Source of the DNA: Clostridia bacterium
GTDB lineage: Bacteria > Bacillota > Clostridia > Christensenellales > Aristaeellaceae
Assembly (NCBI GenBank): GCA_009784985.1
Contig: WQXF01000002.1
Location: 1-60,769 of the forward strand
DNA: 60,769 nt
Reading direction: 5' to 3'
In this document: positions 23,927-52,021 of the stretch, in pieces
Layout of the letters: each line of letters starts with the position of its first letter
Numbering within the stretch: the first letter of the stretch is position 1
Program-made: the position numbers and the translations under genes
Notes under the pieces: model-generated
The model's database searches: none
What the model was told of the DNA's origin: nothing
The model's input: only the letters and a program-made list of their open reading frames with translations

Positions 23927-23940
23927 GGAGTGAATCAACG

Positions 23941-26588: not shown

Positions 26589-29500
26589 ATGGAAAAACAG
26601 AAAAAAGTGAAATTTTATCAGACAAAGGGATTTCGGGCGCTGATCGCCATTGCGCTGGCAGTGATATTGCTGTCCGACGGAGCGGTGCAAAATATGGCGT
26701 CTCTGTTCGCTACCGAGCAGGAAGAGCCGGTACACCAAGGGGTTGCGGTGCTGGAGCCCGCGCCGGAAACGAAGGCTCAGCCTGAACCGCAGGGCGAGCC
26801 TGAAGCCCAGGATGAACCTGAAGCCCAGGGTGAGCCTGAAACCCAAGGCGAGCTTGAAACCGAAGGCGAGCCTGAAGCCGAAAGCGAGCCTGAAGGGGAA
26901 AGCGCCTCTGAAACCGAAGGCGAACCCATCGGCGATGCCGCTGCAAAAGCCGCGGCGGGGAGTTTCCTTGCCGAGATTCTTGCCATCGACGACATGACGT
27001 ATGTGCGCGTAAGCGGCGATGTCTTTTCATCCTACAGGTTGCGGGAGCAGGATCTGCTGGGCCGGGTTTCGGGCATTGCCGTCGCCAGCGCCTACAACGA
27101 GGCTGACGACGAAGCCCAAGTCCCTGCTTCGGTGCTTGTGGCTTTTGTTACCGAAGGCGGGCTGTTAGAAAGCTACATCGCCCCCGCCAATGCCCAACTG
27201 CTGGCGTATGAACTGACCGTTGAAGAGATTGGCGAGGATGTGGCCCTTGAGTACGGCTCAGCCGCTTGGCCGCTGCCCTTGGCCAATTTTGAGCCCGCCC
27301 AAGAAATGGCGCCCATGATGGGTTTATTTGCGGAACTTGAGCTGAGCGCCGAAGCCCAGGCCGTGATCGACATGATCGAGCTGCTGCCCGATGCCGACGC
27401 GCTGCCCGATGGCCCGGTTCCCCAAGAGCTGATCGATCAAATCTTGGCCGCCTGGGAAGCGTACCAAGCGCTGACCGAGGAGCAGCAGGCCGAGGTATAT
27501 AACATCGACAAGCTGGAAGCGCTGTTGCCCTTGCTGTTCCCGCAGCCCATGATCATGGCGGCCGGTATCGACGGGCTTTTGGAGTTGACGGTAAGCGCCG
27601 TGTGGAACGACAACGATGATGAGGCCCGTGCCCGCCCCGCAAGCGTGACGGTTCGGCTGTTGGCCGACGGGGAAGAGATCGCCTTTGCCGTGCTGCAAGA
27701 CGCAAACGACTGGCAGCATACCTGGGCCGAGCTGCCCCAGTATAAGGAAGACGAAGTGACCGCGATCAACTATTCCGTTACCCAGGATGCCGTGGCCGGT
27801 TACTATACCTACATAGATTCCGACGGGGAGCCTAACATGCCGGTGGCGGTGAACATCTACATCGACGGTGAGCTGAGCATGAACCTGGCCAACGGCCACG
27901 TGTTCCGCATCCGCTTCGACGGTGCGTCCATCACGGCCATCATCACCTACCGGCCCTACCTGACCGGATTGCAGGAGAGGCTGCGCATCGTGCTGCCGCC
28001 GTTTTTCTACTTTACGGCCACGCCCAGCAGCGGCGACGGCTTCCGGGTGCAACACAGCAACGTACCTTTGCCCAAGGAATACTACACCTCGCCCATGGCC
28101 GACATTCTAAAAAACTATACCCCCAGCAGAACCAATTGCAACCAGTTGGTGATCATCTTTGATGAGGATGTGGCTTCGGAGTTTACGCTCACCCTGGGCA
28201 TGGCGTCCAACAACCTGAACTGGCTGAGCGAGCTGATGGTGCTGTACGGAACCGATCCCGACAAGATTCCCCTTAAGATACTGGCCATTGCCGAGGACAT
28301 GAACGGCAAACGCTTGGACTACGCGGAGTATGAGGGTACGTCGGCCATCACCGATGCCAGCGGCCTCAGCCCGTTTGAATCCGTAATCAACTTCCCTAAC
28401 CGCTTCAATAGCAACAACATCATCCCTTGCCCGTGGAACGGTAACGGCTACGAAGCGCAGCAAGTACAGCTCTATGCCAATGCCTCCAATTGGTACCTGG
28501 CCAGTGTGAGCACCTGGCATTATCCCTATACCGACATGGTGTTTTATGTGCCTTGCCCCGAGCCGCTGAAGGTTACCGGCTTTTTAAACGTAGCGTACAC
28601 CCCCAAGCCCGAAGATTACTTTGAGCTGAGCGGCAAGCGCTATTTGAAGATTGAGAGCGCTTCGTTTAGAAACATGATGAACATCAACAGCGCGTTCAAT
28701 TGGCCCGCCAGCGCAAACAATGCATCCAACAGGAACATGGTGACCTACCAGTTCCCCGATAACGACACGCTCCTGCCGGGAGATGCTTATTCCTTTGGCC
28801 CGGTATACATGGGGTATACCCACAAAGGCATACGGTACGACTTGGACGCAAGCGCCCAGGTTGCCGCGCCCACTGTGTGGACCATCAATGATTTTGCCGT
28901 TACCAGCTCGCGCACTTCCCCGCATACCAATGTCTCATTCTTTGACCCAAATGGCAGCTGGGGAAACTCAGAGAACTTGCGCAAGCGCCTGCAGGGCAAG
29001 GAAGGCGACAGGTATCAAGTGCATTGGACCTACGGCGGCGCCAACCGCAACAGCCTGGCCTACACCTACGAAGACGCCCGCATGAACCTCACCTTCCCTT
29101 ACGAGGTATCGCCCACTCGCATTGAATACACGGCGGGCGGTGTGATTTCTTACAACCATCAATCGTCTTTGCCCTATGTAGGCAACCAGTTTAATCCCAC
29201 GGCGGTGGATTATCGCGTGCATGGGGATCCCACCGTACACACCATACCGTTGAGCCCGACGCAACACTTCGTTAACTTCCCCGAGGAAGCGGAAAATATC
29301 GTGTGGGTGTCCTTCCATTACGATGAAATTATGCCGTCGATGCAGAACATGACGTATGTCATCACGGCAAACAACAAAACCCAAGACGCCAACGGACAGG
29401 ACTTGGGCGCTTCGTACAATGTACAAATCGGCATGTCCCTCACCACGGAGAGCGGCATGCGGGCGACCGCGGCAAAGGATCCGGCCAGGCGGATAGAGGA

Positions 29501-32500
29501 TGCGTTTTTCCTTTCCTTCGGCCAGCCTTTCCAGCTGACCCAACCCATGGATGCGCTGCGCTTCGGCACCATCCACGCTTCCGGCGGTACCGCCGGGAAC
29601 AGAACCACCACGGTACTTTCCCGCGGAAAGCTAAGCAACTCCAACGCGCCGCAGCCGGGCAGCACCTCTTCGACGTCTCCCATCACCACACCCAACACCA
29701 ATCCGTACCCCTGGTCGTTTGTGATCATGAAAACCGACGGCCAGATGCAAGACTATGAGGATGTGCGGATCACTGTCACAAACACCAATGCCGCCAGCGC
29801 CAATGTGATGGAAAAACTAAAGGGCTTTCACTTTGGCGGGCAAATCATCAGCAGCTCCAGCGGGGTTACCATCAAGTACACCACCAACCTTGGCCAGCGG
29901 GAGCAGGTTGTTACCACCAACGGCATCAATGTCGATCTGCGGCTCCTGCCGGGTGAGCATGTGCTTAGCGGCAGCCAAGTTGTGATCGAACTGGGCACCA
30001 TCAACGGCGAAAAGCTTACGCCCACCAGCCAGGCGCCCACCAGCGTAAGCAACAACAAGTGGAACTATACCTCCACCATCGGCCAGGGCAATACCATCAC
30101 CCCTTACTTTAACGGCATCCGCCAGTATTCCGACGGTTCGCCCGTGGTGCATAATTCCACCAATGAGCTCAAGGGTACGCTCACCACCAGCACCCAGGCC
30201 CGGTTTATCGACGGGGCCAACGGCCTCAGCACGCAGTTTAACGATACCTCCATCGGCTCCATCGTGCACCAAACCGGCTGGAGCTCCACGCTTACACAGA
30301 ACGATGCCAGCGCCGCCGCAGTGGGTTGGAACAACAACAGGTCTTACTACCCCAACTCTGTGGTGAACTTTACCCTGGGCCTGGGTGCGGTGTGGCCCAA
30401 CGCCTTAACCGGCGACGTTATCGATGACATGAACCAGTACAAACAGTTCGACATGGGCGGCGCCCTGCTGTACCTGGAGGTGGCCGAGGGTTTTGAGCTA
30501 ACCAGCATCACCGGGTTTGCGCTCAAGGAAATTCGCGCCATTCCCTCCAGCAGGAACAAGCTGTTTGTGTTTGAGGCGGATTCCTACATCACGTCGATCC
30601 GCTTGAACAACAATATGATGCCGTCCAGGCAGGTGCAGGGTTATGTAACGCCCACCGCCCAGCTGTCGGTAAACCAAACGCCCATGATCCTAAACGGCGC
30701 TTGGAGCTGGGACGCCTTTGCCGACCGATACATGACGCCGGCCTCCGGCCCCGATGCGTACTTTAATCAAGCCCCCTATTACACCATCACTACGCCGGAC
30801 AGGGCTTTCCCAAGCCATTGGGGCATTGTGGCGGCGCCCCGGCCCGAGGGCACGGACGACCCGTACGGCTACGTAGAGCGGCAGATGGGCATCCTGAACA
30901 TGGCCAGTGTCACCGGTGTTATCGTGCAGATGGCCAGCTTGGACCGCGTTACCCTGAAGCCCGGCATGAACGGCGCGATCTATGGCAGCGGCACCGTGGC
31001 GTTCTTTGACTGGCAGAGCACGGATTTGATGGCCAAGGCCTGGATGCAAAACGCAAGCGCCGAAGCCCACATCGAATCCTACGAAGCGGTGTTCCAGCTT
31101 GCGCGCACCGAGTTGCCCACCGTGGGTTCGGGCGCGTCCGCCAGGCAGATGTACACCAACGAATTCGATCTTTTCTTAACCGGGCCGGTGCAGTACGATC
31201 CGGCGATTGTGGATAGCATCGTGTATTACGACGGTTATGAGGGCACCGGCAACGTGGTTCCCATCACCAGCGCCTCCACCGCCGCACAGCTGCGCAGTGT
31301 GCAGAGCTTTGTGGTATTCGTGGCCAAGCTGGAGCCCGGCGGGGCCGCCGTGATCGAGATGCCGCTGGAGACCACCTACACCAAGCTTGGCACCCTCACC
31401 AGGGACATCAAGGCCTACGTGGGCGTCAAGCGCCGGTATCAAACCAGCACGCAGCTTATGCCCACCGTGTTTGCCTATTCCACGCCCGCGGAATTCTCCT
31501 ACGTAAGCCGCGTGCTGCAAATGAACATCGGTTATGACGGCTTTTTTAACGGCAGCCGCACCGGCACAGGGTCTTCACTTGCCTACCCCGTGGTGTACTA
31601 CACCGACGAGGGCGGTGTGGAAAAAGAACTGTTCAACGGGCAAAACAACTGGAACAGCCAGTATAACGTGCGGGTAAACCAAGACGTATCCCGGGTGGAA
31701 ATGTTCATCCGGCAGCCGGATCAATATGCCTTTACGGTGCAAAAGATGCCGGGCGTGATGGAGGCGCTGAATTCAGACTTCCCCCGGGTTGCGCCCGATC
31801 AGCCCTCCGTGCTGAACGTTAATTATAACGACCTGCGCGGCGTTACCAACGCCGGGCTGAAGTATGACGTGCTGGTGTACGGCCTGCTAAGGCCCAACCC
31901 CCAGGATTTGATCCTACGCACAGGGCAGACCAGGCAACTCAACTGGGGGTGGAGCGGCAGTTACATCCATGACACCAGCGGAATTTCCGTAACCTGGGAT
32001 CCGGCCTACGAAGGCCCCGACCCCAGCATCGCCACCCTGGCGCGGACAGGCGGAAACAACGCGTACCCCACCGTGATGGCCACCGCCGTGGGCCTGGGCG
32101 AAACCACATACAAGATGGTGATCGAAAACGCCTTTGTGGGCACAGAACACGAGAAACCTTGGGATACCGCCGAGAAGACCGCCAATATCTACGTGATTGA
32201 AGACTTCCGTATGGCCATGCGTATGTTTGTGGACAAAGACCACAACAACACCTTTGGCCAAGGCGACGAGATGCTGCACTTTGCAGACTTGGCGGAGTAT
32301 CACCAGATGTTCTGGCTTTCGTTTGATTGGGAAACGCCGGTGATTCCCATCGACCCGGCATACGACCCGGTGACGGGCTACTACAGCTTTAGCATAGACC
32401 TGAGTCAAAGCTGGGGTTATCTGTTTGCAAAAAACCCGTACTCCAGCGACATTTCGGCCCAGAACACCGGGCGGTTCCCTTGGGCATTGCCGCCCAATCT

Positions 32501-35500
32501 CCCGCAAGACAGTGGTTCCTTCTGGTACGAGCCGAACTACCCACATGACGCCGGTGAGGTCGCCCTCCTATACGCTGACTTTAGCGATTTACCCGTTACG
32601 GTGGTGAACGACGTGGCGTACGCGTATGTCGATTTTGTGATCGAGCGCCCCCATACCGTTACCTTTACCGCCAAAAACGGCGACATCCTCCAGGGGCAGA
32701 ATACGGACAGGATGGTGTCCGTTAACGGCAGCGTGGTACAGACCGACAACCAGGGCAAAACCTTCAGCCAAATGAAGGTGTGGAATGGCGATTCCATCTA
32801 CACCATTGGCGACTATGTGGGCGTACAGCCCAACGAAGGGTACGTATGGCCACCCGATACCCAATATCAGCTCCGCGAATGGAAGCGCATGGACGACGGC
32901 TCCAACATGCTCAGGCGGGAGGAATGGTGGTCTTGGTACATCCCGATAAGGGAAGACATGACCCTGGAAGCCCAAACATTCCGCCCGGTGTATTTGAACC
33001 TGCTGTTTTTTGACGACCTGAACGGCAACGGCGTGCGCGACCCCGGCGAACCCATCTTGAATATAGGGGAGGCGCATTGGTACTTTGATTTCATCTATGA
33101 GGCGTTCGAGCGGGTGGGCAACACCAACGTATGGAGAGGCATGGCCCCCCAGGGACCAACCACCCTCGAGTACAATGGGTACGGCCCCTTCAGCTATGAC
33201 GATACGGCCAACAACCCGCCGGTGACGCGCTGGCCGGGGGACACGTACACCGTTCGTTACGGCAACACCACCCAGACCCACAACCTTACCCGGTACTGGC
33301 GGCCTTACGATTTCAATATGCCCATGCCCATGACCACCTTTGAGTTGGACTTCTCCGATGTGCCCGTGGGCGAGGACGTCTACTTAGAGATACCCATGCG
33401 CAGGCCCTACATCGTAACCTTCAGAACCGAAAGCGGCACGGTGGTAAGGCCCACAAATACGTATTACAGCCCCAGCTCCCGTTATGTGGATCCGTGGAAC
33501 CCGTCCAAGGTAGACGCCCAGGGCAAGAGCTTCTTGCAGACCCAATACTTCCCCGGAACCCGGCTCACCATGGGCTTTACCGATACCGGATGGCATCCCG
33601 ATCCCTTTGGGCACTACGGCGTTGAGTGGGCACTGGAATATTATTACGAGCAGTACCAGCAATACGACGAGTTCAACCAGTTGGTCACCGTTCAACCCTC
33701 CATGGGCTTCTGGTGGCCCAACTCCCCCGACGAGCGCATGTGGAAGTGCCTGGAAACCAACGAGACAAAATCCGAAACCGAATGGCGGGATACCCCGGTA
33801 AACAGCAACCTAACCTTTGTGGCGCAGCCGCGGCGTATCTTCTTTGCGGTGAACTACATGCCCAACGCCCCAGGGGTAACGGGGGAGACCGACGACGGCA
33901 TGATGTACCGCCCCGGCGACACGGCCACCATCGTACCCAGCGACTTTGTTGTGCCCATGTACCCCGGCACGTCCATGCCGGCCTATGAATTTTTGACCTG
34001 GAACACCGAACCCGACGGCAGCGGCGATACCCACGCGGTGTATAGCACCACCGTGATGGGTGAGGACGACCTTACCCTGTACGCCCAATGGAAAACGCTG
34101 TACCGGGTGGAGCACTACCTGCAAAGGCCGGGTACCTCCCAGTACGATATCGTATCCGCGGACACCCAGACAATCCCTGCCGCGGTGGGTACGCCGATTA
34201 GCGCGCAGCCCAATACGTACAGCGGTTACCGGTTTGCGGAGGCAGTTTCCAACCCCACCGGTATCGTGGCCATGCCGGAGATGGTAAACAACGTGCTGAC
34301 GGCCACAACGCTTAAGTTCTACTATGAGTTGGAGCCCGACCTCAGCATCACCAAAACTGCCAACAGGGAGCTATTCCGCCCCAATACAAATGTGACATTC
34401 ACACTGGTGGTAACCAACGCCGTTGGAGGCATCGCCCGTGACGTGGTTGTTACCGATGTGCTGCCTGCGGGGCTCACCTTTGTGAGCGCTACGCCTCGGG
34501 TGAACGACAGCGGCACCGCCACCGAAGAGAACGGCACAATCACATGGGAAATCCCCAGGATTGCGTCGGGCGCTACCGCCAGGCTCACCATCGTTGCCCG
34601 TGTGGGGGCCAACATGGCCGGGAATACCATTACCAACACCGCCTACCTTGCCGAGGAATTTGGCGAGGAGTACAACCCGATGCCCAGCGACTCCGTGTCC
34701 ATAGAGGCAAAGGATCCGGCCCTCACCATCACCAAACAAGTCGACTTGGATGTGGCGCGCAAAGGCGACACCCTTACCTACACCATCACCGTAACCAACA
34801 CCGACGGGGAGCTGGTGGCCAATAACATCGTGGTGAGCGACGTGCTGCCCACCGGGCTAAGCTACGAGAGCCACACCGCGTCCCAAACCGATGTGGTGAC
34901 CCAGGATGGGAACAGCATCACCTGGCGGGTGGCGGCGCTGAACGCCGGGGCTTCGGCCCAACTCACCTTAAAGGCCAAGGTGGACGCCTTCCCGGCCGCG
35001 GGTTCGGTTACGAATACCGCAACCATCGCCCAGGAGAACGGCGCGGGCTTGCAGGATCCGCCCAGCGATTCCGTTACCACGGACGAAGACGACAACTATA
35101 CCGTGACATACGACGGCAACGGCAATACGGATGGCACAGCGCCGCAAGACAGCAATAGCCCGTACTATGTCAACACCACCGCCACGGTGTTCGACAAGGG
35201 CGATTTGGCCAAAACAGGCCATACGTTTAAGGGCTGGGCCACCAGCGCGCAAGCTGCCACAGCCGGCACGGTGGCCCATGAGCCGGGTGCGCAAATCAAC
35301 ATCGTGGCGAACGTTGCGCTGTTTGCGGTGTGGGAACTGAACAAATTCAGCATCACGTACCAATATACGACCCCTGAGGGCAGCGTAACGCCCATCCAGG
35401 CGATGACCGCCCAACTGCCAGCCGGGGTGGCCAACCCGCCCGGCGCGGCCTTTGGCACAACCCACGCGATCGAAGCCCAGCCCAGCCTCACCGGCTATAC

Positions 35501-38500
35501 GTTCCGCGGCTGGAATGCCACCGACGCAAGTGGTATCACCGTGGACGAAGGCAGCTTTACCATGCCCAACAACGCCGTGGTGTTTGAAGGCTATTGGACG
35601 GCGGATGACGGCACGGAATACAAGGTGGAGCACTACAAGGTGGACGCCGACGGTACCCCCGCCTTGGCCGATACCGACGAACTTTCCGGCATCACGGGCG
35701 CCTCTGTAAACGCATCGCAAAAGACGTACATGGGCTACACCTATAGCGAAACGCTTTCCGAAGCTACAAAGAGCGGCACCATCCTGGCGGACGGCTCCCT
35801 GGTGCTCAAGCTGTACTACACGGTGAACACCTACGCCATTACCTACGCGTTTACGACGCCCGAAGGCAGCATGACGCCCATTGAGGCCATGGCCGCCCAG
35901 TTGCCCGCAGGGGTAGCCAACCCGCCCGGCGTGGCCTTCGGTACAACCCAAGCGGTCGAAACCAAGCCAAGCTTGCAGGGCTACACCTTCCACGGCTGGA
36001 CGACAAGCGACGTGACCGTGAGCGAAAACAGTTTTGCCATGCCGGACAACAGCGTGGCCTTTACCGGCTACTGGACGGTGAACACGGACACGGCGTATAC
36101 GGTGGAGCACTACAAGATAGGCGCCGACGGCACCCCTGTCTTGGCCGATACCGAAGACCTGGCCGGCACCACGGGCGAGGCCGTAAACGCGTCGCAAAAG
36201 ACGTACGAGGGCTACACCTACAGCGACACACTCTCCGCGACCACAAAGAGCGGCACCATCCTGGCGGATGGCTCCCTGGTGCTCAAGCTGTACTATACGG
36301 TGAACAAGTACGCCATCACCTACGCGTACACCACACCCCAGGGCAGCATCACACCCATCGCGGCCATGACCGCCCAGTTGCCTGCCGGGGTGGCCAATCC
36401 GCCCGGCGTGGCCTTTGGCACAACCCAGGCGGTGGAGGCCAAGCCAAGTTTGGAGGGCTACACCTTCCACGGCTGGACAACAAGCGACGTGACGGTGAGC
36501 GGGAACAGCTTTGCCATGCCGGACAGCACCGTAGCCTTTACCGGCTATTGGACGGCCAATGCGGACACGGCGTACACGGTGGAGCACTACAAGGTGGGCG
36601 CCGACGGCGCCCCCGTCTTGGCCGATACCGAAGATCTGGCAGGTACCACGGGCGCGGCTGTAAACGCGACGCAAAAGACGTACCCAGGGCATACCTATAA
36701 CGAAACGCTCTCCGAAGATACAAAGAGCGGCACGATCCTGGCGGACGGCTCCCTGGTGCTTAAGCTGTACTACACGGTAAACAAATATGCCGTCACCTAC
36801 GCGTACACGACGCCAGAGGGCAGCATAACGCCCATCGAGGCAATGACCGTGCAGTTGCCCGCCGGGGTGGCGAACCCGCCCGGCGTGGCCTTCGGCACAA
36901 CCCAGGCAGTCGAGGCCAAGCCAATCTTTGCGGGCTACACCTTCCACGGCTGGACAACAAACGACGTGACGGTGAGCGAGAATAGCTTTGCCATGCCGGA
37001 CAACACCGTGGCCTTTACCGGCTACTGGACCGCAAACACGGACACGGCGTACACGGTGGAGCACTACAAGGTGGATGCGGACGGTATCCCCGCCTTGGCC
37101 GATACCGAAAACCTAACCGGTACCACGGGCGCGGCCGTAAGCGCAACGCAAAAGACGTACGCGGGTTATACCTACAGCGAAACGCTCTCCGAAGATACAA
37201 AGAGCGGAACGATCCTGCCCAGCGGCTCCCTGGTGCTTAAGCTGTACTACACTGTCAATCAGTACGACATCACCTACAGCTACACCAACACCCCCACGGG
37301 CGTGCCCGGCGTGCCTACCGTACAAAGCGCGGCATATGACTCGCCGCAAACGGTATGGCAGCCCGCTCCGGATGTCATCACGGGATACACCTTCAGCGGC
37401 TGGACGGCGGAGGGCATCGGAGTTTCCAGCGGTGACTTCAACATGCCCGACAATGCCGTGACCTTCACCGGCACATGGGTAGGCAAGCCCGTGGTTATCT
37501 CCTTCTTTAACAACCACGACGATACCGATACCTCACGCTATGCGCCCGCCGAGGACGCCAATGCCGACAAACGGTATGGCGAAACCCTGGGCGACTTCAC
37601 CCCCTCCACACGCCACGGCTACAACCTGGACGGCTGGTTTACCGCGCGGACCGGTGGCGCCCAGTACATCCCCGGCACCAGCGTGATTGACACCGAGGGG
37701 CCCTTGGAGCTGTACGCACAGTGGTCGCTCAAGCAGATCGAGGTGCGGTTCCATAACAACTACAATGCTACGGACAACACGCGGTACGCCATTGGCGACG
37801 CGGCCAACACAGGCAAGTTCTATGGCGACACCCTTACGGCCTTTGCCGATCCGGTGCGCCCGCGGTACGACTTTGACGGTTGGTTTACCGCGCGCACGGA
37901 GGGCACGGAGTACGTGCCCGGCACAAGCGTGATCGACACGGACGGTACCCTGAACCTGTACGCCCAGTGGACGTACACCCACGTAACAATCTCGTACGTA
38001 CCCAACAACAATGCTTGGGGCCAGACCGTGCCAATGTCCGAGACAATCCACAAAACGCAGGGCGAGGCGCAGGGCTCCATAGCCACCCCCAATCCCGGTT
38101 GCCTGTTTGTGAACTGGACAGACAGCCAAGGCCGTGTGGTGAGCACGGACAGAACCTTTGTACCGGAGAAGGTTGGGGATGAAAACGTGGCGGCCAGGTA
38201 TACCGCCAACTTTAGAGAGATGGATCATGTAGCGATCTACTATGTAGCGCGGGAGGGCGGCTCAACCTACCCAACGGTGTCCCGCGTCAATCCTGTGTTT
38301 GGTGAGCCGGCCAGGTCCATGGCTACGGCAGCTCCCGGATACGTGTTTGTAAACTGGACCGACGCCCAGGGCAATGTGGTGGGTACCGGCGTTACGTTCA
38401 GGCCCCGCAAAGCAGAGGACGAGTTGTGGCGGGACGGCACCACCTTCTATGCCAACTTTGAGCCCATCGGCGCCAACCCACAGGGAACGATGAGCATATC

Positions 38501-39038: not shown

Positions 39039-39039
39039 A

Positions 39040-39076
39040 CATGGGCGACGGGCGGCCTGGCGCCGCCCGTCCCATG
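39040..39076 (+). other. Intergenic hairpin between giant gene 1 and its binding-protein gene
   Basis: CATGGG plus ACGGGCGGC (39040-39056, with a 2-nt CG bulge) pairs with GCCGCCCGT plus CCCATG (39062-39076) around a 5-nt loop, just after the stop codon. There is no U-tract, so it is more likely a processing or stabilising element or a partial attenuator than a full terminator. The equivalent 38-bp gap in the second module has no such hairpin. Confidence 0.5.
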
Positions 39077-39108
39077 TCTGTAAAAACGCAACATGGAGGA
39101 AAGGCATC

Positions 39109-40992
39109 ATGAAACGGATTTCGGCAATCGTTGCCGCGTCGATCCTGGTATTTTCTTGTATTGTTCCGGCATGGGCGGACGAAGCCCCGGAAACCATGTC
39201 CCTCACGGTGGGCACGCCCACCAGGATAAGCGGTTGCTTTTTTTCGGGCAAGTGGGGCGTTAACTCCGCTGATGTGGACTTGCGCGAACTGATCCACGGC
39301 TACAACACGATCTCATGGGAAGCCAACGGTGATTTTGTGATAGATGAAACCGTGGTGAGGCAACTGGAAGCCTTTGAGGAAAGCGGCAACAGGCGGTATC
39401 GGATCACATTCAACGAGGGCCTAACCTACAATGACGGTTCCCCACTGGCCGCGCCGGATTACGCGTTCTCGGCCCTGCTGCTTTCCTCATCCCAGTTTGC
39501 TGCGCTGGGGGGCGCACCTACCGAGATGAGCTGGCTGTTGGGCTATGAGGCATTTTTTGAGGGCGCGCCTTTCGCGGGCGTGCGGGTGATCGACGAGCAT
39601 ACGTTGGATTTGACGATTGACGGGCGCTATTTGCCCTTTTTCTATGAAATTGTACTGCTGAACATCACGCCGTATCCCATTACCGTGCTTGCGCCGGGCT
39701 GTGAGATAAAGGACGATGGGCAGGGCGCATACATCGAGGGGCCCCTCACCGAGGAGCTGCTTCGCGCAACGGTACTGGACGAGGCCACCGGCTATCTGCG
39801 CAACCCGGCCGTTACTGCAGGCCCGTACGTACTGCAATCCTTCGATGAGGAAGAGCAGATTGCCCAGTTGACAAAAAATCTGTATTACGCGGGCAATTTT
39901 GAGGGGATTGTGCCCCAGATCGACGAGCTTACCGTTGTACATACAAACCCACAAACCGCGCTGGATGATGTCGAGAGCGGACGGATTGACCTGATCAACA
40001 AGATATCCGATGGCGCTGTGATTGAAGACGGCATGGACCGGGTGTGGGAAGACCTGGTGCGCGCACAAAGCTATCTGCGTTCCGGCAAGACCTTCCTTTC
40101 CTTTGCGTGTGAGCTTGGGCCTACACAATCCGTGGGCGTACGCAATGCCGTGACCCGTTGTGTCAACCAGAATGAAGTGATTGCGGAGTTTACGTTGGGG
40201 CACGGCATTCCGGTATACGCATATTACGGCCCCGGTCAGTGGATGGCCCAGGAAGCCCACGAAGAACTCATCAAGTACGAAACCGTACTTGACCTAACCG
40301 AGGCGGCGTGGTTGCTCGTGGAAGACGGTTGGGTGCTCAATGAAAACGGCGACGCCTACGACAAGGATGCCGGAGGCCCGCGCTACCGCGAGGCTGAGGA
40401 TGGCGCCCTGGAAAAGCTGGCCCTCAAGTGGGCGCAGCCCCAGGAAACAGCGCTGTCCGGCGTACTGGAGCAGGCGATGCTGGCACACATGGAGTCTATC
40501 GGCATCGAAGTGGAGATCACAACGCTTCCCTTTGACGAACTGCTCTTGCATTATTATCGGCAGGTTGACCGCACATACAATATGTTCACCATGTCCACCA
40601 ACTTCAACCTGGCCTTTGACCCATATCCTGCGTTTCACACCGGCGATGCGTTTCAGGGCGAATCCAACCGCACCGGCCTGCTGGATGAGGAGTTAATGAA
40701 ACTGGCGTTGGCCATGCGCCAAACAGAGGTGCAAAACAACGAAGCGTACATGGAGCACTGGTTTAATTTCCAGGATAGATTCCATGAGTTGATGCCGGTG
40801 GCGCCGCTATTTTCCAGCGCTTATTACGATTTCCACCGCAATGACTTGCAGGCGTATCACTCCAATGCCTATTTTAGCTGGGCCACGGCCATCGTATATG
40901 CTTACATCGGCGATCCGCCGGCAGAGGAGTGGGGTGAAATTGAGGATGTGCCCCTGCAGATGGATGAGACGTTCGGTGATGATGACTGGTAG
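39109..40992 (+). CDS. Secreted family-5 solute-binding-like protein A
   Basis: A 627-residue exported protein with a signal peptide (MKRISAIVAASILVF, SPase I site near AWA-DEA). It lacks a good lipobox. The body matches peptide/nickel-type binding proteins (SBP family 5): DVDLRELIHGYNTISWE, YRITFNEGLTYNDGSPLAAP, TAGPYVLQSFDEEEQIAQL, the LTKNLYYAG/FEGIVPQIDEL pattern and FDPYPAFHTGD. It is a clear paralogue of 50156-52021. Family members usually feed Opp/Dpp permeases, but none is nearby and the protein seems not to be lipid-anchored. Its constant partner is the giant surface protein upstream. GGAGGAAAG precedes the ATG. A terminator follows at 41029. Confidence 0.82.
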   Translation: MKRISAIVAASILVFSCIVPAWADEAPETMSLTVGTPTRISGCFFSGKWGVNSADVDLRELIHGYNTISWEANGDFVIDETVVRQLEAFEESGNRRYRITFNEGLTYNDGSPLAAPDYAFSALLLSSSQFAALGGAPTEMSWLLGYEAFFEGAPFAGVRVIDEHTLDLTIDGRYLPFFYEIVLLNITPYPITVLAPGCEIKDDGQGAYIEGPLTEELLRATVLDEATGYLRNPAVTAGPYVLQSFDEEEQIAQLTKNLYYAGNFEGIVPQIDELTVVHTNPQTALDDVESGRIDLINKISDGAVIEDGMDRVWEDLVRAQSYLRSGKTFLSFACELGPTQSVGVRNAVTRCVNQNEVIAEFTLGHGIPVYAYYGPGQWMAQEAHEELIKYETVLDLTEAAWLLVEDGWVLNENGDAYDKDAGGPRYREAEDGALEKLALKWAQPQETALSGVLEQAMLAHMESIGIEVEITTLPFDELLLHYYRQVDRTYNMFTMSTNFNLAFDPYPAFHTGDAFQGESNRTGLLDEELMKLALAMRQTEVQNNEAYMEHWFNFQDRFHELMPVAPLFSSAYYDFHRNDLQAYHSNAYFSWATAIVYAYIGDPPAEEWGEIEDVPLQMDETFGDDDW

Positions 40993-41028: not shown

Positions 41029-41064
41029 GCTCTGCTGACACCCAAATCAGCAGAGCTGTTTTTT
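41029..41064 (+). terminator. Intrinsic terminator of module 1
   Basis: A 10-bp stem GCTCTGCTGA (41029-41038) / TCAGCAGAGC (41047-41056) with a U-run 41059-41064, 37 bases after the stop codon. Confidence 0.85.
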
Positions 41065-41241: not shown

Positions 41242-41271
41242 TTGACAGAAAGTTGCTTTTCATTTTACAGT
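41242..41271 (+). promoter_or_regulatory. Promoter of giant surface-protein gene 2
   Basis: TTGACA (41242-41247), 18 bp, TACAGT (41266-41271), 56 bases before the start codon. The rest of the 335-base gap (41065-41241) is AT-rich with no gene seen. Confidence 0.55.
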
Positions 41272-44300: not shown

Positions 44301-47300
44301 ACGCTGGTATATACTGCTGGCTCGATACCTGACAATAACTCCCAATTCCGGCGAGAAGTATTCCTCTACCACCGCATGCGCTACCAGCTGACCTTCGACA
44401 CCCGCGTGGGAGCCGGGCAAACCGTTCTGCCCGCGCCGGCAAAGACCGTCATGTTCGGCGAGAGCTTGATCAACAGCGTCAACGACCATCGACCGGCGGG
44501 ATGGGTGAAGGACGTTTACTCCTACACCCACAGCGTATCGGGCATCTCCTACACGTTTAAGGGCTGGTTCTGGGATCCCCAATACTTGCGCGAATTTGAT
44601 TTCCAGACCGAAACAATGCCTGCCAACAGCGTTACGCTGTTCGCCAAATGGGAGGCGCAAAAATTCTCGGTGCGCTTTGAGTTGCCGGGCGGCACGGTCT
44701 ACCACAATATCCCGCAGTGGGAAGCCGGCACCACGCTGGGCGCCGATTTCCCCGCCGCCCCGGATGTCACCGGCATGCAGTTCTTTGGCTGGCGCGTCGG
44801 TACGTCGGCGTTCACCAGCGATACGCCGATCATCGCAAACACCGTGGCCGTCGCGCAGCTCCGGCCGCTTCAAACGCCTTACAAGGTACGCTACGTACTA
44901 AACGACGGGTCGGACAAAGATCTCTGGCCCAGCAAGACGGTTCACGGCAAACGCTTTGGCGATGTGATCACCGTGCCCGCCGATGAAAACTACGTGAACA
45001 TTCCCGGCTTTGCGTATGTCAGTGTGTCCGCGTCGTCGCTGACGCTGAGCCAGATCAGCGCGCAAAACGAGTTGATTTTCTACTACGAAAAGCTGGCCGA
45101 GTACCAATATCAGGTGCGCTGGTACCTGGAAGGCACAACTACCCCGGTGCCGGGTTTCCCCGCGCCCACAACCCAGGGAACGCCCGTGTTCCAACCGTTG
45201 GTCTGGGCCCGGCACGATACAAATAACCGATATTTCCCGACGCAGACATACCAAATGCAGACGCTTGACGCGAACGAGATAACGTATATCGACTTCTACT
45301 ACAAAGCGTTTGACTTCCACACGTTTACCGAGAACATATACCTGGTAGGCAGTGCCGGCAACGGCACGATCATACACACCCGCTCCGGCGAAGCGCGGGT
45401 CGGCGATACCGTCACGGTCGAATACCCAAATACCGTGCACACCTCCGGCAGCAACAAATACATCTACAACCCTGACGATTCGGGCACCATCAACTCCCAG
45501 GTGGTCACCTCCGGAAGCGGCGCCATAGAAGTCCGGCGGTATTTCTACCAAGTCTACGACGTGACTTTTGTGCCGAACAATCCGGCATACGGTTCGCTGA
45601 GTGGGGAAACGGTTTTGAGCGACGTATTCCACGGCACGGAGGTGGCTAGCCTCACGCGGCCCACGCCGGTACCCGCGTCGAATTACTACTTTAACCAATG
45701 GACCGGCCCCACGGCAACAACCGTTGCCGCGCCGATGACGTTCACCGCCGAGTTCCTTGAAAAAAAAGACTTGGTGATCAAGGCGGTTAGCAATACCTTA
45801 ACCTACAACGGCGCGTCGCAGTCGCTGGCTGCCGAGTTTACCTTCACCGTAGACGGCTTGGCGGCCCCGGGTCTGACCCTTTCCGGATTCACCGTTTCCG
45901 GCGCTGCGGGCACAAACGCCGGAACATACCCAAACACCTTTGCAAACAAAGAGGCCCTGAAGGTTACAAACGCTGCGCTCGAGGATGTTACGCATATGTA
46001 TCGTGCGCAATTTGACGACGGCAGCTTAGTGATCGGCAAGAAGGCATTGGAAGTAAAGCCCAAGAACGCATCGGTTCTTTACACCGGGCTGCCGCAAACA
46101 TCCACGGCGCTGGATGCGCCCGGCCTGATCACGGGGCATGTTGCGCAGGCCTCGGTTCAGGGCGGCGGAACGATTCCCGGCGGCTATACGCTGACCATTA
46201 ACAGCGAGATCAAGGTATTTGCAGGCGAAACCGATGTAACGGCTAACTACGAGATTACCCAGGGCACGGGCACGCTAACCATCAAACCCTTAACGGGCGG
46301 CCCGGAAGACCCGAAGATCGCGCTGGTGATCACGCCCGACGACTACGAGGCGGAGTACACGGGTTCGGAGATCAGTATCCCCGCAGCCCACACGGGCAAG
46401 GTGACCCACGGCGGACAGCCCCTCGCCAACTTCCCCGGGGTGACGGTAACCTACACGATGGCGGGCAAAGGCTTGGTGCCGGGCAACTACGATATCACGG
46501 TGAACGCTTCGAGCGTGCAGGTGACAGTTGGCGGCGTGGACGTAAAGGCCAACTACGAGATCACCCTCAATACCGGCGATTTCACCATCAAACAGCCGGG
46601 CGGAACGGGCGACAAGATCGCGCTGGTGATCACACCCCACGACTATGAAGCGCTGTACACGGGCGGGGAGATCAATATCCCCGCAACCCACGGGGCGACG
46701 ATAACCCACGGCGGCCAGCCCCTGGCGGACTTCCCCGGAGTGACAGTAACCTACACGATGTCGGGCAAGGGCGTGGTGCCCGGTACCTACGATATCACGG
46801 TGGACGCTGCCAGCGTGCAGGTGACGGCGGGCGGCGTGGACGTGAAGTCCATCTACGATATCACCCTCAACACCGGCGATCTGACCATCAAACCCTTGAC
46901 GGGAGGCCCGGAAGACCCGAAGATTGCGCTGGTGATCACGCCCGGCGACTATGAGGCGCTATACACAGGTGCGGAGATCAGTATCCCCGCAACCCACACG
47001 GCGACGGTGACCCACGGCGGCCATCCCCTGGCGAACTTCCCCGCGGTGACGGTAACCTACACGATGGCGGGCAAAGGCGTGGCGCCGGGCGCCTACGATA
47101 TCACGGTGGACGCCTCGAGCGTGCAGGTGACAGTTGGCGGCGTGGACATGAAGGCCAACTACACGATCACCCTCAACACCGGTGATCTGACCATTAAACC
47201 CTTAACGGGCGGCCCGGAAGACCCGAAGATCGCGCTGGTGATCACGCCCGACGACTACGAGGCGCTGTACACAGGTGCGGAGATCAGTATCCCCGCAGCC

Positions 47301-50117
47301 CACACGGGCAAGGTGACCCACGGTGGCCAACCCATTGCGAATTTCCCCGCAGTAACGGTAATCTACACGATGGCGGGCAAGGGCATGGTGCCAGGCACCT
47401 ACGATATCACGGTGAACGCCTCGAGCGTGCAGGTGACGGTTGGCGGCGTGGACGTAAAGGCCAACTACGAGATCACCCTGAACACCGGCGATTTGGTGAT
47501 CAAACAGCCAGACGGAACGGGCGACAAGATCCCGCTGGTGATCACGGCCAACGATTATGAGGCGCTGTACACAGGTGCGGAGATCAATATCCCCGCAACT
47601 CACACGGCGACAGTGACCCACGGCGGCCAGCCCCTGGCGGACTTCCCCGGAGTGACGGTAACCTACACGATGTCGGGCAAGGGCGTCGTACCGGGTACCT
47701 ACGATATCACGGTGGATGCCGCGAGCGTGCAGGTGACGGCGGGCGGCGTGGACGTGAAGTCCATCTACGATATCACCCTCAACACCGGCGATCTGACCAT
47801 CAAACCCTTGACGGGCGGCCCGGAAGATCCGAAGATCGCACTGGTGATCACACCCGGCGACTACGAGGCGCTGTACACGGGTGCGGAGATCAGTATCCCC
47901 GCAACCCACACAGCGATGGTGACCCACGGCGGTCAGCCCATCACCAACTTCCCCGCAGTGACGGTAACCTACACGATGGCGGGCAAGGGTACTGCGCCGG
48001 GCACCTACGCGATTACGGTGAACGCCACGAGCGTGCAGGTGACGGTTGGCGGCGTGGACATGAAGGCCAACTACACGATCACCCTCAACACCGGCACGCT
48101 GCTGATCGACGGCGCGGACTACAACGTAGAACACTATCACGTGGATCCCTCAGGTACGGCAGCGGCGGCCCCATTCGCTACCGACACCCTGACAGGCGCA
48201 ACCGGCGCGACAGTCAGCGGGACGCCCAAAACCAACATCGTGGGCTACACCTACGACGCGGCGCATCCGGGCACGGTAACGAGCGGCACAGTCGCGAAGG
48301 ACGGTTCGCTGACGCTCAAGCTGTATTATCCGGTCAATCGGCACAACCTTACCTACCTCTACGCCAATACCCCGGCAGGCGCGCCCTCGTTGCCCACCGT
48401 ACAAAGCACGGCCTACAATACATCGCAAACGGTGTGGCAACCCTCGCCCGACGTTATCACGGGATATACCTTCGGCGGCTGGACGGCGGAAGGCATCGGA
48501 GTCACCAGCGGTAACTTCAACATGCCGGACAACCCGGTGACCTTCACCGGCACATGGACGGGCAAACCCGTGGTCATTTCCTTCTTTAACAACCACGACG
48601 ATACCGATACCTCACGCTACGCCCCCGCCGACAGCGCCAACACCAGCAAGCGGTATGGCGAAACCCTGGGCAGCTTCATCGCTCCCACACGCCACGGCTA
48701 CAATCTGGACGGCTGGTACACTGCCAGAAGCGGCGGCACGCAGTACATCCCCGGCACCAGCGTGATTGATACCGAAGGGCCCCTGGAGCTGTACGCGCGG
48801 TGGTCGCTCAAGCAAATCGAGGTGCGGTTCTTCCTCAATTTCAGCGCCACGGATACCGCGCGGTACGCGGTGGGCGAAACGGCCAACACAGGCAAGTTCT
48901 ATAGCGACACGCTGTCCACGTTCGCTGATCCGGTGCGCGAAAAGTACACCTTCGCCGGTTGGTTTTCGGCCCGCACGGGCGGCACAGAGTATGTGCCCGG
49001 AACCAGCGTGATCGATACGGACGGTCCCCTGAACCTGTACGCACAGTGGATATACGACTATGCGATCATCAGGTACGCCACTAATAATTGGGATTGGGGT
49101 ACGGCTTCTCCCGGAAGCGAAGAGGTTCACAAAATCTTGGGCGACGCCCAGGGCTCCACGGCAAGCGCAAATCCCGGCTACATCTTCGTGAACTGGACGG
49201 ACAGCCAGGGCCAAATCGTGAGCACCAACAGGACGTTTGTGCCGGGCAGGGTGGGCGGAGTGAACGTAGACGCCACCTTCACCGCCAACTTTAGAGAAAT
49301 GGATCATGTAACGGTCCGCTATGTGGCGCGGGCAGGCGGCGTGGTGTATCCGACGCTGTGGCAGGGTAACCCGCAACTAGGCGATCCGGTACGGTCGACG
49401 GCAACACCCAACGCGGGGTTCGAGTTTGTCAACTGGACGGATGCCAGCGGCAATGTGGTAGGCACCGGTATCAGCTACCGGCCCAGAAAAGAAGCCAACC
49501 AGCTGTGGGCGAACGGCACCACGTTCTACGCGAACTTTGCGCCCACCGGGGTTCTGGGCGTGGGAGACTTGATTGACATTCCCGTGAACAAGGTGTGGAG
49601 CGGAATAACCGGCACGCCAAGCCTACCCAGCATAACGGTGACGCTGCGCCGGAACGGGGCCGTGTACCGCACGTTGCGTTTAGGCAATGGAAACTGGTCC
49701 GGCGTGTTTGCCAATGTGCCTGCGAACGGGCCGAACGGCCAGCCGTACACGTATTCGGTAACCGAAGGTGCGGTGCCGGGATTCACACTGGTAGGGATCA
49801 GTGGAGCGGCGCAAGAGGGCTTTACGATCACCAACGCGCCGTCGGGGATGCTGAATGTATACTTCTTAGACTGGAATGGGAAGCTGCTGAAACATCAACA
49901 GGTGGCGTACGGCGCAAGCGCGACTCCACCGGAAGACCCAGTTCGGGCGAACTATCAGTTCACAGGCTGGGGCGGCGATTACACGAGCATTACGCGCACC
50001 ACCTACATCCGCGCGCAGTACGGACTGTCCGACGGCTTGGATTTCATGGAGATTGCCGATCTAGCGATCCCGCTCGCCGGGGGCTCGATCTCGAACTTCG
50101 GAGATATGATTGAGTAA
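41328..50117 (+). CDS. Giant repeat-rich surface protein 2 (InlB-B, MBG-like, Cna-B repeats), 2929 aa
   Basis: A paralogue of giant protein 1. The N terminus has the same export region (LRFYHTKKFRSLMGVALALIL), then an acidic Glu/Ala repeat (about 68-122, for example EEGAAEDGSAEEGAA) and the shared domain (YVRVNGEVYSSANLREKDLL). Several InlB-B/Flg_new domains follow (YTFTGWTSAETG, YTFKGWF). MBG-like domains begin near residue 1482, with six tandem 100-residue repeats at about 1661-2260. The block around 2410-2660 (KPVVISFFNNHDDTDTSRYA) is nearly identical to giant 1. A Cna-B domain lies at about 2749-2840. It ends IPLAGGSISNFGDMIE without LPXTG or anchor. GGAGG lies 10 bases before the ATG. 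Probable role: adhesion or a surface layer; no ligand can be inferred. Confidence 0.85.
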   Translation: MEKQENTKKKLRFYHTKKFRSLMGVALALILVGNEMIVRIPALFAGDGSQDAPDPGMEIAMLEQTSKPEAQLETQLGLEGMAAEATEEEAELLTEGGSAEEGAAEDGSAEEGAAAEKPAVESPAGDLLAKAIAADGMAYVRVNGEVYSSANLREKDLLGRVSGIAIAITYNEANEDTRATVEVVFATDKALGKGFMDAGDAMLQGYDETVEEIGEDGVREYQSAAWPLSLASFEAAKVGQAVSPMSGSGSFEVLGADVMPIASFYNWDDETLLYETPVEVGDYAVYEGETPQRDGFEFAGWDPDPADTPILSDTWFTAQFFMPVATLGGELLSGDLGGGDTYHSVKFVGHDGEQIAAQSVLHGAAAVVPQNPTRPDSGGVGYRFTGWQSAPVGITTGNITADVVFTAAYETLQRVTFTINYQFAGGVSDPDITLPPALIFQHLMNDVIDISEDSPALAGYRADIATVTYEGTITMNISRTVTYTKVTDLVPYTIRYYLERAGITGEPDIANAAHFDLQAAPIHTGSVPYGEVFIPADHSFPGYVRMDRPYSPLTEATTISEYYKRDEFTVMFDTGGDGASFHEPVTAKFGAPVALPTPARTGYTFTGWTSAETGSIPAGTAQINMPPANITLKAVWDANLVNVQVVYWFETANVLPFNQTPVITNQNHFSVVDIGSSAGSSVQIPGATATIQRLAGSDPVTGYTAPQDVVTTQAPGEADYQVKVGEHMGQWATTATVAGDGSTILNVYYKRIVFTYIFDRVNVFSGMSYMPDFHYPWIEPGNAATGMVPGDTGTYNPRYSFQFKFEEFIGGKWPSWGSTYWPETPHTTRTIIEWYPYMTANTVHPTRANLGYFRSNAITVASPALLPVAGQNNLNLADNEAIWGFYATSGQQNYGSFVSYFFEQLPGQNTVPGQYTYMSSGPETMPETPRTRDITLTHNGVNYIFNAGNLGQTSGHPHGGDMPYSHPYSADGPSFAADLVPLEGMDMDPTKTLVYTAGSIPDNNSQFRREVFLYHRMRYQLTFDTRVGAGQTVLPAPAKTVMFGESLINSVNDHRPAGWVKDVYSYTHSVSGISYTFKGWFWDPQYLREFDFQTETMPANSVTLFAKWEAQKFSVRFELPGGTVYHNIPQWEAGTTLGADFPAAPDVTGMQFFGWRVGTSAFTSDTPIIANTVAVAQLRPLQTPYKVRYVLNDGSDKDLWPSKTVHGKRFGDVITVPADENYVNIPGFAYVSVSASSLTLSQISAQNELIFYYEKLAEYQYQVRWYLEGTTTPVPGFPAPTTQGTPVFQPLVWARHDTNNRYFPTQTYQMQTLDANEITYIDFYYKAFDFHTFTENIYLVGSAGNGTIIHTRSGEARVGDTVTVEYPNTVHTSGSNKYIYNPDDSGTINSQVVTSGSGAIEVRRYFYQVYDVTFVPNNPAYGSLSGETVLSDVFHGTEVASLTRPTPVPASNYYFNQWTGPTATTVAAPMTFTAEFLEKKDLVIKAVSNTLTYNGASQSLAAEFTFTVDGLAAPGLTLSGFTVSGAAGTNAGTYPNTFANKEALKVTNAALEDVTHMYRAQFDDGSLVIGKKALEVKPKNASVLYTGLPQTSTALDAPGLITGHVAQASVQGGGTIPGGYTLTINSEIKVFAGETDVTANYEITQGTGTLTIKPLTGGPEDPKIALVITPDDYEAEYTGSEISIPAAHTGKVTHGGQPLANFPGVTVTYTMAGKGLVPGNYDITVNASSVQVTVGGVDVKANYEITLNTGDFTIKQPGGTGDKIALVITPHDYEALYTGGEINIPATHGATITHGGQPLADFPGVTVTYTMSGKGVVPGTYDITVDAASVQVTAGGVDVKSIYDITLNTGDLTIKPLTGGPEDPKIALVITPGDYEALYTGAEISIPATHTATVTHGGHPLANFPAVTVTYTMAGKGVAPGAYDITVDASSVQVTVGGVDMKANYTITLNTGDLTIKPLTGGPEDPKIALVITPDDYEALYTGAEISIPAAHTGKVTHGGQPIANFPAVTVIYTMAGKGMVPGTYDITVNASSVQVTVGGVDVKANYEITLNTGDLVIKQPDGTGDKIPLVITANDYEALYTGAEINIPATHTATVTHGGQPLADFPGVTVTYTMSGKGVVPGTYDITVDAASVQVTAGGVDVKSIYDITLNTGDLTIKPLTGGPEDPKIALVITPGDYEALYTGAEISIPATHTAMVTHGGQPITNFPAVTVTYTMAGKGTAPGTYAITVNATSVQVTVGGVDMKANYTITLNTGTLLIDGADYNVEHYHVDPSGTAAAAPFATDTLTGATGATVSGTPKTNIVGYTYDAAHPGTVTSGTVAKDGSLTLKLYYPVNRHNLTYLYANTPAGAPSLPTVQSTAYNTSQTVWQPSPDVITGYTFGGWTAEGIGVTSGNFNMPDNPVTFTGTWTGKPVVISFFNNHDDTDTSRYAPADSANTSKRYGETLGSFIAPTRHGYNLDGWYTARSGGTQYIPGTSVIDTEGPLELYARWSLKQIEVRFFLNFSATDTARYAVGETANTGKFYSDTLSTFADPVREKYTFAGWFSARTGGTEYVPGTSVIDTDGPLNLYAQWIYDYAIIRYATNNWDWGTASPGSEEVHKILGDAQGSTASANPGYIFVNWTDSQGQIVSTNRTFVPGRVGGVNVDATFTANFREMDHVTVRYVARAGGVVYPTLWQGNPQLGDPVRSTATPNAGFEFVNWTDASGNVVGTGISYRPRKEANQLWANGTTFYANFAPTGVLGVGDLIDIPVNKVWSGITGTPSLPSITVTLRRNGAVYRTLRLGNGNWSGVFANVPANGPNGQPYTYSVTEGAVPGFTLVGISGAAQEGFTITNAPSGMLNVYFLDWNGKLLKHQQVAYGASATPPEDPVRANYQFTGWGGDYTSITRTTYIRAQYGLSDGLDFMEIADLAIPLAGGSISNFGDMIE
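46316..48100 (+). repeat. Six tandem ~300-bp MBG-like coding repeats
   Basis: Copies begin near 46316, 46615, 46920, 47227, 47527 and 47834, each encoding about 100 residues. The pattern is IALVITPDDYEALYTGAEI, then THGGQPLANFPGVTVTYTM, then VQVTVGGVDVKANYEITLN. Linkers alternate between PLTGGPEDPK and QPGGTGDK types. DNA identity between copies is high, so copy number may vary by recombination. Confidence 0.88.
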
Positions 50118-50155
50118 AGCGGCTTCAAAAAGTAGAGAGATGGGAGCGTAATGTT

Positions 50156-52021
50156 ATGAAAATGATGCTGGCAATCGTCTTGGCGCTGGCTTTGGCAACG
50201 CCGGCCTGGGCGTCGGCCGAAAGCGGTGAGGGTCCGATGACCCTCACCGTGGGCCTGACGGCGCCGATGACCGGAAACTTCTTTACCAACAAGTGGGACA
50301 CGAACATGGCGGATGTGGACTTGCGCGAACTGATCCACGGAAACAATACGATTGCGTGGGAGCAAAATGGCCGCTTCGCCTTGAACCAAACGGTGGTCCA
50401 CTCGCTGGAAACGCAGATGGACGGCGGGGACAAAACCTACAGTTTTATGCTCAACGAGAATCTGGCGTATTGCGACGGCACGCTGATCGCGGCGCGGGAT
50501 TATGTGTTTTCCATACTGTTGCTCTCCTCGCCGGAGTTTGCCGCGCTGGGCGGCGTGCCCACGGAGTTGAGCTATCTGAAGGGATACGACGATTTTGTGG
50601 CAGGTTCGCCGTTTTCGGGCGTGCGGATAACAGGCGAGCACTCGTTTAACGTAACGATAGACGGAAGGTTTTTGCCCCATTTTTACGAGCTCATGCTGCT
50701 TAACGTCACACCGTACCCCATCGGCGTGATCGCGCCTGAATGCGCGGTAGCGGACGACGGTTCCGGCGCGTACATCGACGGTCCATTCACACAGGAGTTG
50801 CTACGCGCCACGATTCTGAACGAAGAGAGCGGGTATCTATATGCCCCGGCGGTGACGGCGGGCCCCTATCGGCTGATCAACTTCGACGAGGTGGACCAGA
50901 TCGTGCGCCTGGCAAAGAACCCGTACTACACCGGCAATTTCGAGGGAGTGATCCCGCAGGTTGACGAGCTCACCGTTGTGTACGTAAGCTCGGCCGATGG
51001 GCTCAAGCAATTGGAACAAGGCACATTGGACTTGCTATGCCGAGTGGCTGACGGAACGATGATTGAGGCAGGCATAGAACAAGCAATGATGAACCGGATG
51101 GATCGCGCGATTTACCTGCGTACCGGGCTGGCGTTCATCTCCTTTGCATGCGAGCTGGAGTTTACGGATTCGGCTAACTTGCGCAAGGCGATCACATACC
51201 TTGTGGATCAGTACGACTTAAGCACTAACTTTACGCTGGGGTTCGGAATGCCGGTGTATGGCTACTACGGCATGGGCCAGTGGATGGCGGAAGAAAATCC
51301 CGATCTCCTCGAAAAATACGAGAAGATGCTGGATCACGAGCTGGCGGTTTCATATTTGGAAGCCGACGGATGGATTTTGAACGAGGATGGCGACCGGTAT
51401 AGAATGGAAATTGACACCGTGCGCCACCGTGCGGCGGAAGATGGGTCGTTGGAGCGTTTGGCGCTCAGGTGGGCGCAGCCGGAAGAGACGGCGCTTTCCA
51501 AGATGCTGGAAGACGCGATGCGCCCCCACATGGAAGCGGTGGGAATTGAGCTGGAGGTAGAGCGGATGCCTTTTGACATGTTGCTGTCCCTCTATTACCG
51601 TCAGGAAAACCGGAATTATCATATGTTCAACCTTTCCACGGATTTCAGCCTGGTATTTGATCCGTTCTTCGCCTTCCATACGGGCGACGAGTACCAAGGC
51701 TTGGCTAACCGCACGGGGATCATGGACGAGGAACTGATGCTTCGTGCGCTGGCGATGCGGCAAACCGAGGCGCAGAACATAGAGGGTTATGTGGAGAAGT
51801 GGGCGCTGTTCCAAGACCGCTTTGACGAGCTACAGCCCATGGTGCCGCTGTTCTCCAGCGTGTACGCGGATTTTTACCGCACCGACCTGCAGATGTATTA
51901 TCCCAGTGCGTACTACAGTTGGGCGACGGCCATCGTGTATTCATATATTGGCGAACCGCCTGCGGAGGACGAAGTGGGAGAGGACGAAGCGTGGCTGGCG
52001 CTGGATGACGAGGGCTGGTAA
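50156..52021 (+). CDS. Secreted family-5 solute-binding-like protein B
   Basis: A 621-residue paralogue of the protein at 39109-40992. The signal peptide is MKMMLAIVLALALATPAWAS with no lipobox. Shared stretches are NMADVDLRELIHGNNTIAWE, VDELTVVY, FSLVFDPFFAFHTGDEYQG and the C-terminal SAYYSWATAIVYSYIGEPPA followed by an acidic end. It lies 38 bases after giant protein 2 with a GGGAG site, and a terminator follows. No permease or ATPase is linked. That both copies stay paired with giant surface proteins suggests a joint surface function, such as ligand capture or assembly, rather than ordinary transport. This is an inference. Confidence 0.82.
   Translation: MKMMLAIVLALALATPAWASAESGEGPMTLTVGLTAPMTGNFFTNKWDTNMADVDLRELIHGNNTIAWEQNGRFALNQTVVHSLETQMDGGDKTYSFMLNENLAYCDGTLIAARDYVFSILLLSSPEFAALGGVPTELSYLKGYDDFVAGSPFSGVRITGEHSFNVTIDGRFLPHFYELMLLNVTPYPIGVIAPECAVADDGSGAYIDGPFTQELLRATILNEESGYLYAPAVTAGPYRLINFDEVDQIVRLAKNPYYTGNFEGVIPQVDELTVVYVSSADGLKQLEQGTLDLLCRVADGTMIEAGIEQAMMNRMDRAIYLRTGLAFISFACELEFTDSANLRKAITYLVDQYDLSTNFTLGFGMPVYGYYGMGQWMAEENPDLLEKYEKMLDHELAVSYLEADGWILNEDGDRYRMEIDTVRHRAAEDGSLERLALRWAQPEETALSKMLEDAMRPHMEAVGIELEVERMPFDMLLSLYYRQENRNYHMFNLSTDFSLVFDPFFAFHTGDEYQGLANRTGIMDEELMLRALAMRQTEAQNIEGYVEKWALFQDRFDELQPMVPLFSSVYADFYRTDLQMYYPSAYYSWATAIVYSYIGEPPAEDEVGEDEAWLALDDEGW

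Follow-up and report, generated by a model that had tools for sequence, protein, structure and literature searches.

The window analysed here is the whole 60,769-nucleotide contig WQXF01000002.1 (contig C2 in this study) of a Clostridia bacterium of the family Aristaeellaceae, whose genome (assembly GCA_009784985.1) comprises 2.86 Mb in 206 contigs. It contains two tandem gene pairs on the forward strand, pair A (26589-40992) and pair B (41328-52021), each encoding a giant surface protein followed by a family-5 substrate-binding protein (SBP). The constant partner element of such permease-less SBPs is a C-terminal tail of about 22 residues, the tag, and not the giant size of the partner. Tagged protein and SBP may together form a module for capping or holding secreted proteins outside the cell.

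Two gene pairs in tandem

The duplicated giant and SBP_5 genes (Table 1) are present as the original prediction, made from the DNA letters of the window, had described them. Giants A and B are alike at both ends, with 63% identity across the final ~667 residues and 43% across the initial ~258, and have unlike repeat interiors, built of 477 bp units in A and 306 bp units in B. Both giants match the Pfam models Cna_B and Flg_new/Flg_new_2 (InlB-type), and giant A also matches DUF11. SBP A and SBP B, which are 57% identical, score above the cut-off of SBP_bac_5, and no oligopeptide (Opp) permease or ATPase genes are found near either pair, again as predicted. An intrinsic terminator with a T-run closes each pair. 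The prediction of a promoter for each pair holds for pair B, which has a good match, and is doubtful for pair A, where the match is weak.

The start of SBP A is placed at 39109 and not at 38824, the position given by the open reading frame (ORF) caller, which runs into giant A, because the signal-peptide Met lies at 39109 and is preceded by a good ribosome-binding site (ATGGAGGAAAGGCATC-ATG). The GC-rich hairpin between giant A and SBP A has a minimum free energy of -33 kcal/mol and a z-score of -3.3 (computed over 39030-39108); pair B has no equivalent. It is a possible expression step-down or stabiliser and could set the ratio of giant to SBP.

Table 1. Coordinates of the features of the two gene pairs in the window
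Feature	Coordinates	Strand	Description or basis
Giant surface protein A, 4149 aa	26589..39038	+	N-terminal hydrophobic signal/anchor, shared N-terminal region, Cna_B, DUF11, InlB-type repeats, C-terminal tag
Repeats, 4 x 477 bp	35377..37294	+	Interior of giant A
C-terminal tag A	38970..39035	+	WIFDFAVPLAGGAVSNFGDSVE-COOH; tail profile from 102 relatives
GC-rich hairpin without T-run	39040..39076	+	Between giant A and SBP A
SBP_5 protein A	39109..40992	+	Signal peptidase I (SPase I)-type signal peptide PAWA/DEA (cut at the slash); no permease partner
Terminator, pair A	41029..41056	+	Intrinsic; stem-loop GCTCTGCTGA...TCAGCAGAGC, then TGTTTTTT (T-run)
Promoter-like element, pair B	41242..41271	+	TTGACA-18-TACAGT
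Giant surface protein B, 2929 aa	41328..50117	+	C-terminal tag; Pfam and comparison of the giants
Repeats, 6 x 306 bp	46278..48095	+	Interior of giant B
C-terminal tag B	50049..50114	+	Last 22 residues, ending IADLAIPLAGGSISNFGDMIE-COOH
SBP_5 protein B, 621 aa	50156..52021	+	SPase I-type signal peptide PAWA/SAE (cut at the slash)
Terminator, pair B	52026..52061	+	Intrinsic; stem-loop, then T-run

The C-terminal tag

The window tails, AVPLAGGAVSNFGDSVE and AIPLAGGSISNFGDMIE, follow the variant SNFGD(S/M)(V/I)E, and like endings (such as IEEMAVPLGFGGTIMNVGDCFE-stop and IDEPGTPLGLGQVYINVGDCLE-stop) precede the SBP gene in the first relatives sampled. The consensus is [DE][YF]xTPLGxG…[IML]NxG[DE]C[FLIY]E-COOH. 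When 102 tailed ORFs are aligned from their ends, Gly occupies position -5 in 100, Asp or Glu position -4 in 89, Glu position -1 in 86, Cys position -3 in 81 and Asn position -7 in 77, and the spacing from PL to the end is nearly always 15-16 residues. The Cys is substituted in the other 21 tails, those of the window included.

No C-terminal hydrophobic stretch is found in any of the 102 tailed ORFs, and only four have an LPxTG-like string in their last 60 residues. The window giants end in the tag, with no LPXTG-like motif, hydrophobic helix or positive tail, and so fall outside the definition of an LPXTG substrate.

The original prediction took the giant to be the partner, which is true of the window pairs, and did not single out the tail; among relatives, partner lengths extend from fewer than 200 to more than 4,000 residues, sizes that are partly those of fragments, as contig ends or frameshifts truncate some tailed ORFs. 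Several complete tailed proteins have about 170-230 residues and signal peptides of their own.

Linkage of the tag to the SBP

The strict pattern NxGDC[LF]E-stop, applied to whole genomes blind to the SBP, has 32 matches in 31 of 200 genomes drawn evenly from the family and mostly fragmented, and the backward control has none. In all 32 cases the start of an SBP_5 gene lies on the same strand, 12-158 bp further downstream. The SBP itself is found at E <= 1e-60 in 118 of these 200 genomes.

An SBP survey was made up of the neighbourhoods of the best-scoring profile hits, the loci found earlier and the copies of the source genome (sampled loci carry L numbers below). It used a looser tail expression, composed after tails had been seen, which matches two of 845 other ORFs, one of them the giant of L065. 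The survey gave 117 SBPs that have no Opp genes beside them; in 102 of these cases the ORF immediately before the SBP is tailed. Five of the remaining 15 have too little upstream sequence, and three (L178, L192 and L065) look tailed by eye; the tailed-looking giant of L065 ends 570 nt from its SBP. SBPs that stand with OppBCDF never have a tailed gene upstream (0/16), and OppB adjoins none of the 102 tailed SBP loci, so that the gene linkage of an Opp/Dpp importer is lacking. In the tree, tailed (102) and Opp-linked (15) SBPs are split on one branch with a support of 100 in the Shimodaira-Hasegawa-like approximate likelihood ratio test.

These 102 loci, and the separate clade of the Opp-linked SBPs, support the earlier view of a dedicated two-gene surface module that is unlikely to serve ordinary uptake. 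Two findings in relatives had been named in advance as contrary to it: SBPs of this kind beside Opp permeases do not occur in the sample, and partners other than giants do.

Signal peptides of the SBPs

No lipobox-like motif is present in 88 of the 102 tailed SBPs. SBP A of the window contains VFSC, followed by an SPase I-type site. The predicted SPase I-type sites are thus found; the argument that was drawn from them against uptake is rejected, because 15 of the 16 Opp-operon SBPs of the sample (such as L087, L229 and L240-L249) lack a lipobox too. Loss of the lipoprotein pathway across the family is also rejected, as Lgt is found in 58 of 60 genomes, and so is a diderm cell plan behind the soluble SBPs, as the source genome has no Omp85.

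Structure models of tag and SBP

At 22 loci the reading frame of the tailed gene, continued past its stop codon, runs into the SBP with no second stop. Read-through chains consisting of tail, linker, signal peptide and SBP, with the stop read as Gly, were modelled by AlphaFold2 from alignments of 21 read-through rows plus SBP-only rows (76 in alignment A2 and 74 in A3). The SBP part has a predicted local distance difference test (pLDDT) score mostly above 90. In the first model (L174), pLDDT is below 50 at residues 1-30, 37-43 and 60-76, and at least 50 at tail residues 31-36 (IGDCLE), with a strand or bridge at Asp33-Cys34. In the second (L150), the final ten tail residues, TIMNVGDCFE, have a mean pLDDT of 78, against 48 for the ten before and 50 for the ten after, and the strand or bridge lies at Asp27-Cys28, the same Asp-Cys of the tail. 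The end of the tail is predicted to dock on the SBP, because a bridge needs a partner and the unordered N-terminal part offers no neighbouring strand; the site would be the peptide cleft. The nearest structures in the PDB to a relative's model are the Bacillus subtilis AppA-nonapeptide complex 1xoc (TMt 0.82) and the closed Lactococcus lactis OppA 3drf (0.81).

Proposed role of the module and alternatives

We propose, with a probability of roughly 55%, that tagged secreted cargo and a dedicated, transporter-free OppA-type SBP form one module, in which the bound SBP caps, holds or retains the cargo. Cargo and SBP would both leave the cell by Sec, and the SBP would close around the end of the tag (roughly NxGDCxE-COOH) and remain bound. 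The tag would occupy the position of the sortase signal in the cargo, a reading made because a C-terminal transmembrane stretch is absent from the sampled tailed proteins. The bound SBP could then serve giants, pilus subunits and sortase-bearing proteins as an assembly chaperone or a substitute end-anchor, and not as a nutrient scavenger. Chances are about even that the tag replaces the LPXTG signal and is read by an SBP, recruited from an ABC (ATP-binding cassette) importer, that clamps the exported protein and retains or caps it; the pair would then be a non-enzymatic tag-and-receptor system for the surface proteins of a bacterium that has no outer membrane.

Several points weigh against this proposal. 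The survey took its SBPs from the top-scoring hits of a profile whose seed consisted mostly of tailed members, and some SBPs of the clade, for example L063, L182 and L217, have no tailed neighbour. Strong raw associations between tail residue -3 and SBP columns become mostly ties among seven kinship-independent pairs. In the models, the tail is fused to the linker and hence has no free carboxylate, and AlphaFold may put any peptide into an OppA-like cleft; the linker of the same chain, unlike the tail end, stayed unordered.

The main rival relies on an identical contact of tag and SBP and reverses the roles: the tag would be a docking handle, holding the soluble SBP at the cell surface or on a pilus, where the SBP would be the working part, as an adhesin or as a receptor of peptides or signals. 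Certain tailed proteins are encoded in pilus operons or include a sortase domain bound to the membrane, and the Bifidobacterium bifidum surface lipoprotein BopA is a reported adhesin (PMC3408352). A tag that fills the peptide cleft would leave no room for another ligand, and the SBPs share no extra domain beyond variable acidic C-terminal extensions. Display is a tentative, less probable alternative. The best reading is that the SBP clamps the tag, with capping or retention a more probable role than display.

A less likely explanation makes the tag a processing or sorting signal for another enzyme, for example through a sortase or a Cys-dependent linkage, with the SBP merely co-expressed or binding the released C-terminal peptide. 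The pattern [DE][DE]xxPLG...NxGD resembles the stretch ahead of classical sortase signals in Clostridia, the Cys at -3 is frequent and sortase genes lie near certain copies. No hydrophobic segment or positive tail follows the motif, however, the Cys is replaced in the window tails and elsewhere, and many loci have no sortase match in the searched stretch, while the SBP is the constant neighbour.

Ordinary uptake, in which the SBP would supply a distant Opp permease and stand behind adhesin genes incidentally, is very improbable: the SBP_5 fold is intact, Opp-operon SBPs of the family likewise lack a lipobox and the genome has an Opp operon, but the tail counts (32/32 and 102/117, against 0/16 for Opp-linked SBPs) and the separate clade reject an incidental position, and it is the missing permeases and the tail linkage, not the missing lipobox, that disfavour uptake.

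Cargo and operon contexts

The tailed proteins include FctA pilins (L174, L188, L191 and L200), a MucBP protein (L231), Cna_B giants, and proteins that join a sortase domain to MucBP or Cna_B (L089 and L235). Genes for pilin, sortase and a signal-peptidase-like protein occur together at L074 and at the four FctA loci. At these four, the genes run pilin, signal-peptidase-like gene, pilin, sortase, tailed FctA protein and SBP. A small set of pilus-operon query genes has no match near the window pairs.

Other contexts are also seen. At L227, L231 and L236 the operon of the tailed protein and SBP also includes two conserved genes and one that looks NusG-like by eye. At L220, L222, L224, L225, L228, L168 and L170 they adjoin a conserved membrane-type protein (the 406-residue family of L228), in an operon type without pilin match to which some of these loci add a signal-peptidase-like gene. 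Additional upstream genes without the tag are found at L011 (17869-18936, reverse strand), L071 (14970-17111, reverse strand) and L067 (1772-2488, forward strand). Genes of this set have a KFYxTKGFR-type N-terminus, an (N)LxWxWRVKV-like ending, or both, and those of L011 and L071 share the first of these features with the window giants. The tagless upstream gene is possibly a third component of the module.

Relation to known systems

OppA and AppA (SBP_bac_5) have the same fold and Pfam domain as the module SBP, which differs from them by having no nearby permease or ATPase, by its fixed tagged partner gene and by forming a clade apart from the Opp-operon SBPs of the family. BopA, which we take to be OppA-like, is another protein to compare. 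Like the module SBP it is a surface protein; it differs in being a lipoprotein, and the abstract of its report (PMC3408352) describes no tagged partner gene. Surface proteins and pilins sorted by sortase (LPXTG; FctA, Cna_B) have the same cargo domains, and several module loci are sortase pilus operons; the tailed proteins differ in ending in the tag without a C-terminal hydrophobic helix. SipA of Streptococcus pyogenes pili is a peptide-binding fold that no longer does its normal work; its gene accompanies those of pilus proteins, and in assembly it has been proposed to attach to a component at the cell surface (PMC4049620). It is a precedent for the reuse of a peptide-binding fold in the assembly of such pili, although SipA has the signal-peptidase fold, whereas the module has the OppA fold and a partner with a recognisable sequence tag.

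No earlier description of a transporter-free SBP that pairs with a C-terminal tag was found in the open-access full-text literature. We know of no described system with this pairing; the binding step of the module is a prediction. The module suggests that gut bacteria related to Christensenella cap or hold proteins outside the cell in a manner not described before, and that the binding protein of a peptide importer has apparently become a partner dedicated to surface proteins. A short tag predicts the partner gene from sequence alone, the role of permease-less SBPs becomes directly testable with one peptide and one protein, and uncharacterised gut and rumen Clostridia gain a testable surface-protein mechanism. 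If the binding is true, the pair of tag and SBP could serve as a compact attachment tool.

Distribution and further copies

Outside the family, a sample of 297 genomes of the order has one motif match, with no SBP nearby, and a sample of 398 genomes of the phylum has two, neither with a related SBP; these three matches among about 670 genomes are judged to be chance. One related pair of tail and SBP, L079, comes from a different family of the order and has an SBP with a lipobox. Named records that match the SBP profile are metagenome-assembled genomes of Clostridia, many of them from animal gut or rumen, and include Candidatus Onthenecus and Candidatus Pullichristensenella.

Upstream of giant A, an ABC-type cluster (19769-26461) contains two BPD_transp_1 permeases, a MacB_PCD protein, and proteins of 754 and 451 residues, both without a Pfam hit.

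Elsewhere in the source genome, a third pair of giant and SBP lies on contig C42; the giant ends in SNFGDTVD and the SBP is 55% identical to SBP B. Extra SBP copies are found on contigs C137, C38 and C157. Contig C76 has an OppABCDF operon of the typical kind, with an SBP only about 30% identical to those of the window. Relatives of the N-terminal region of the giants are present on seven further contigs, several of them at contig ends, as is expected of repeats that break assemblies.
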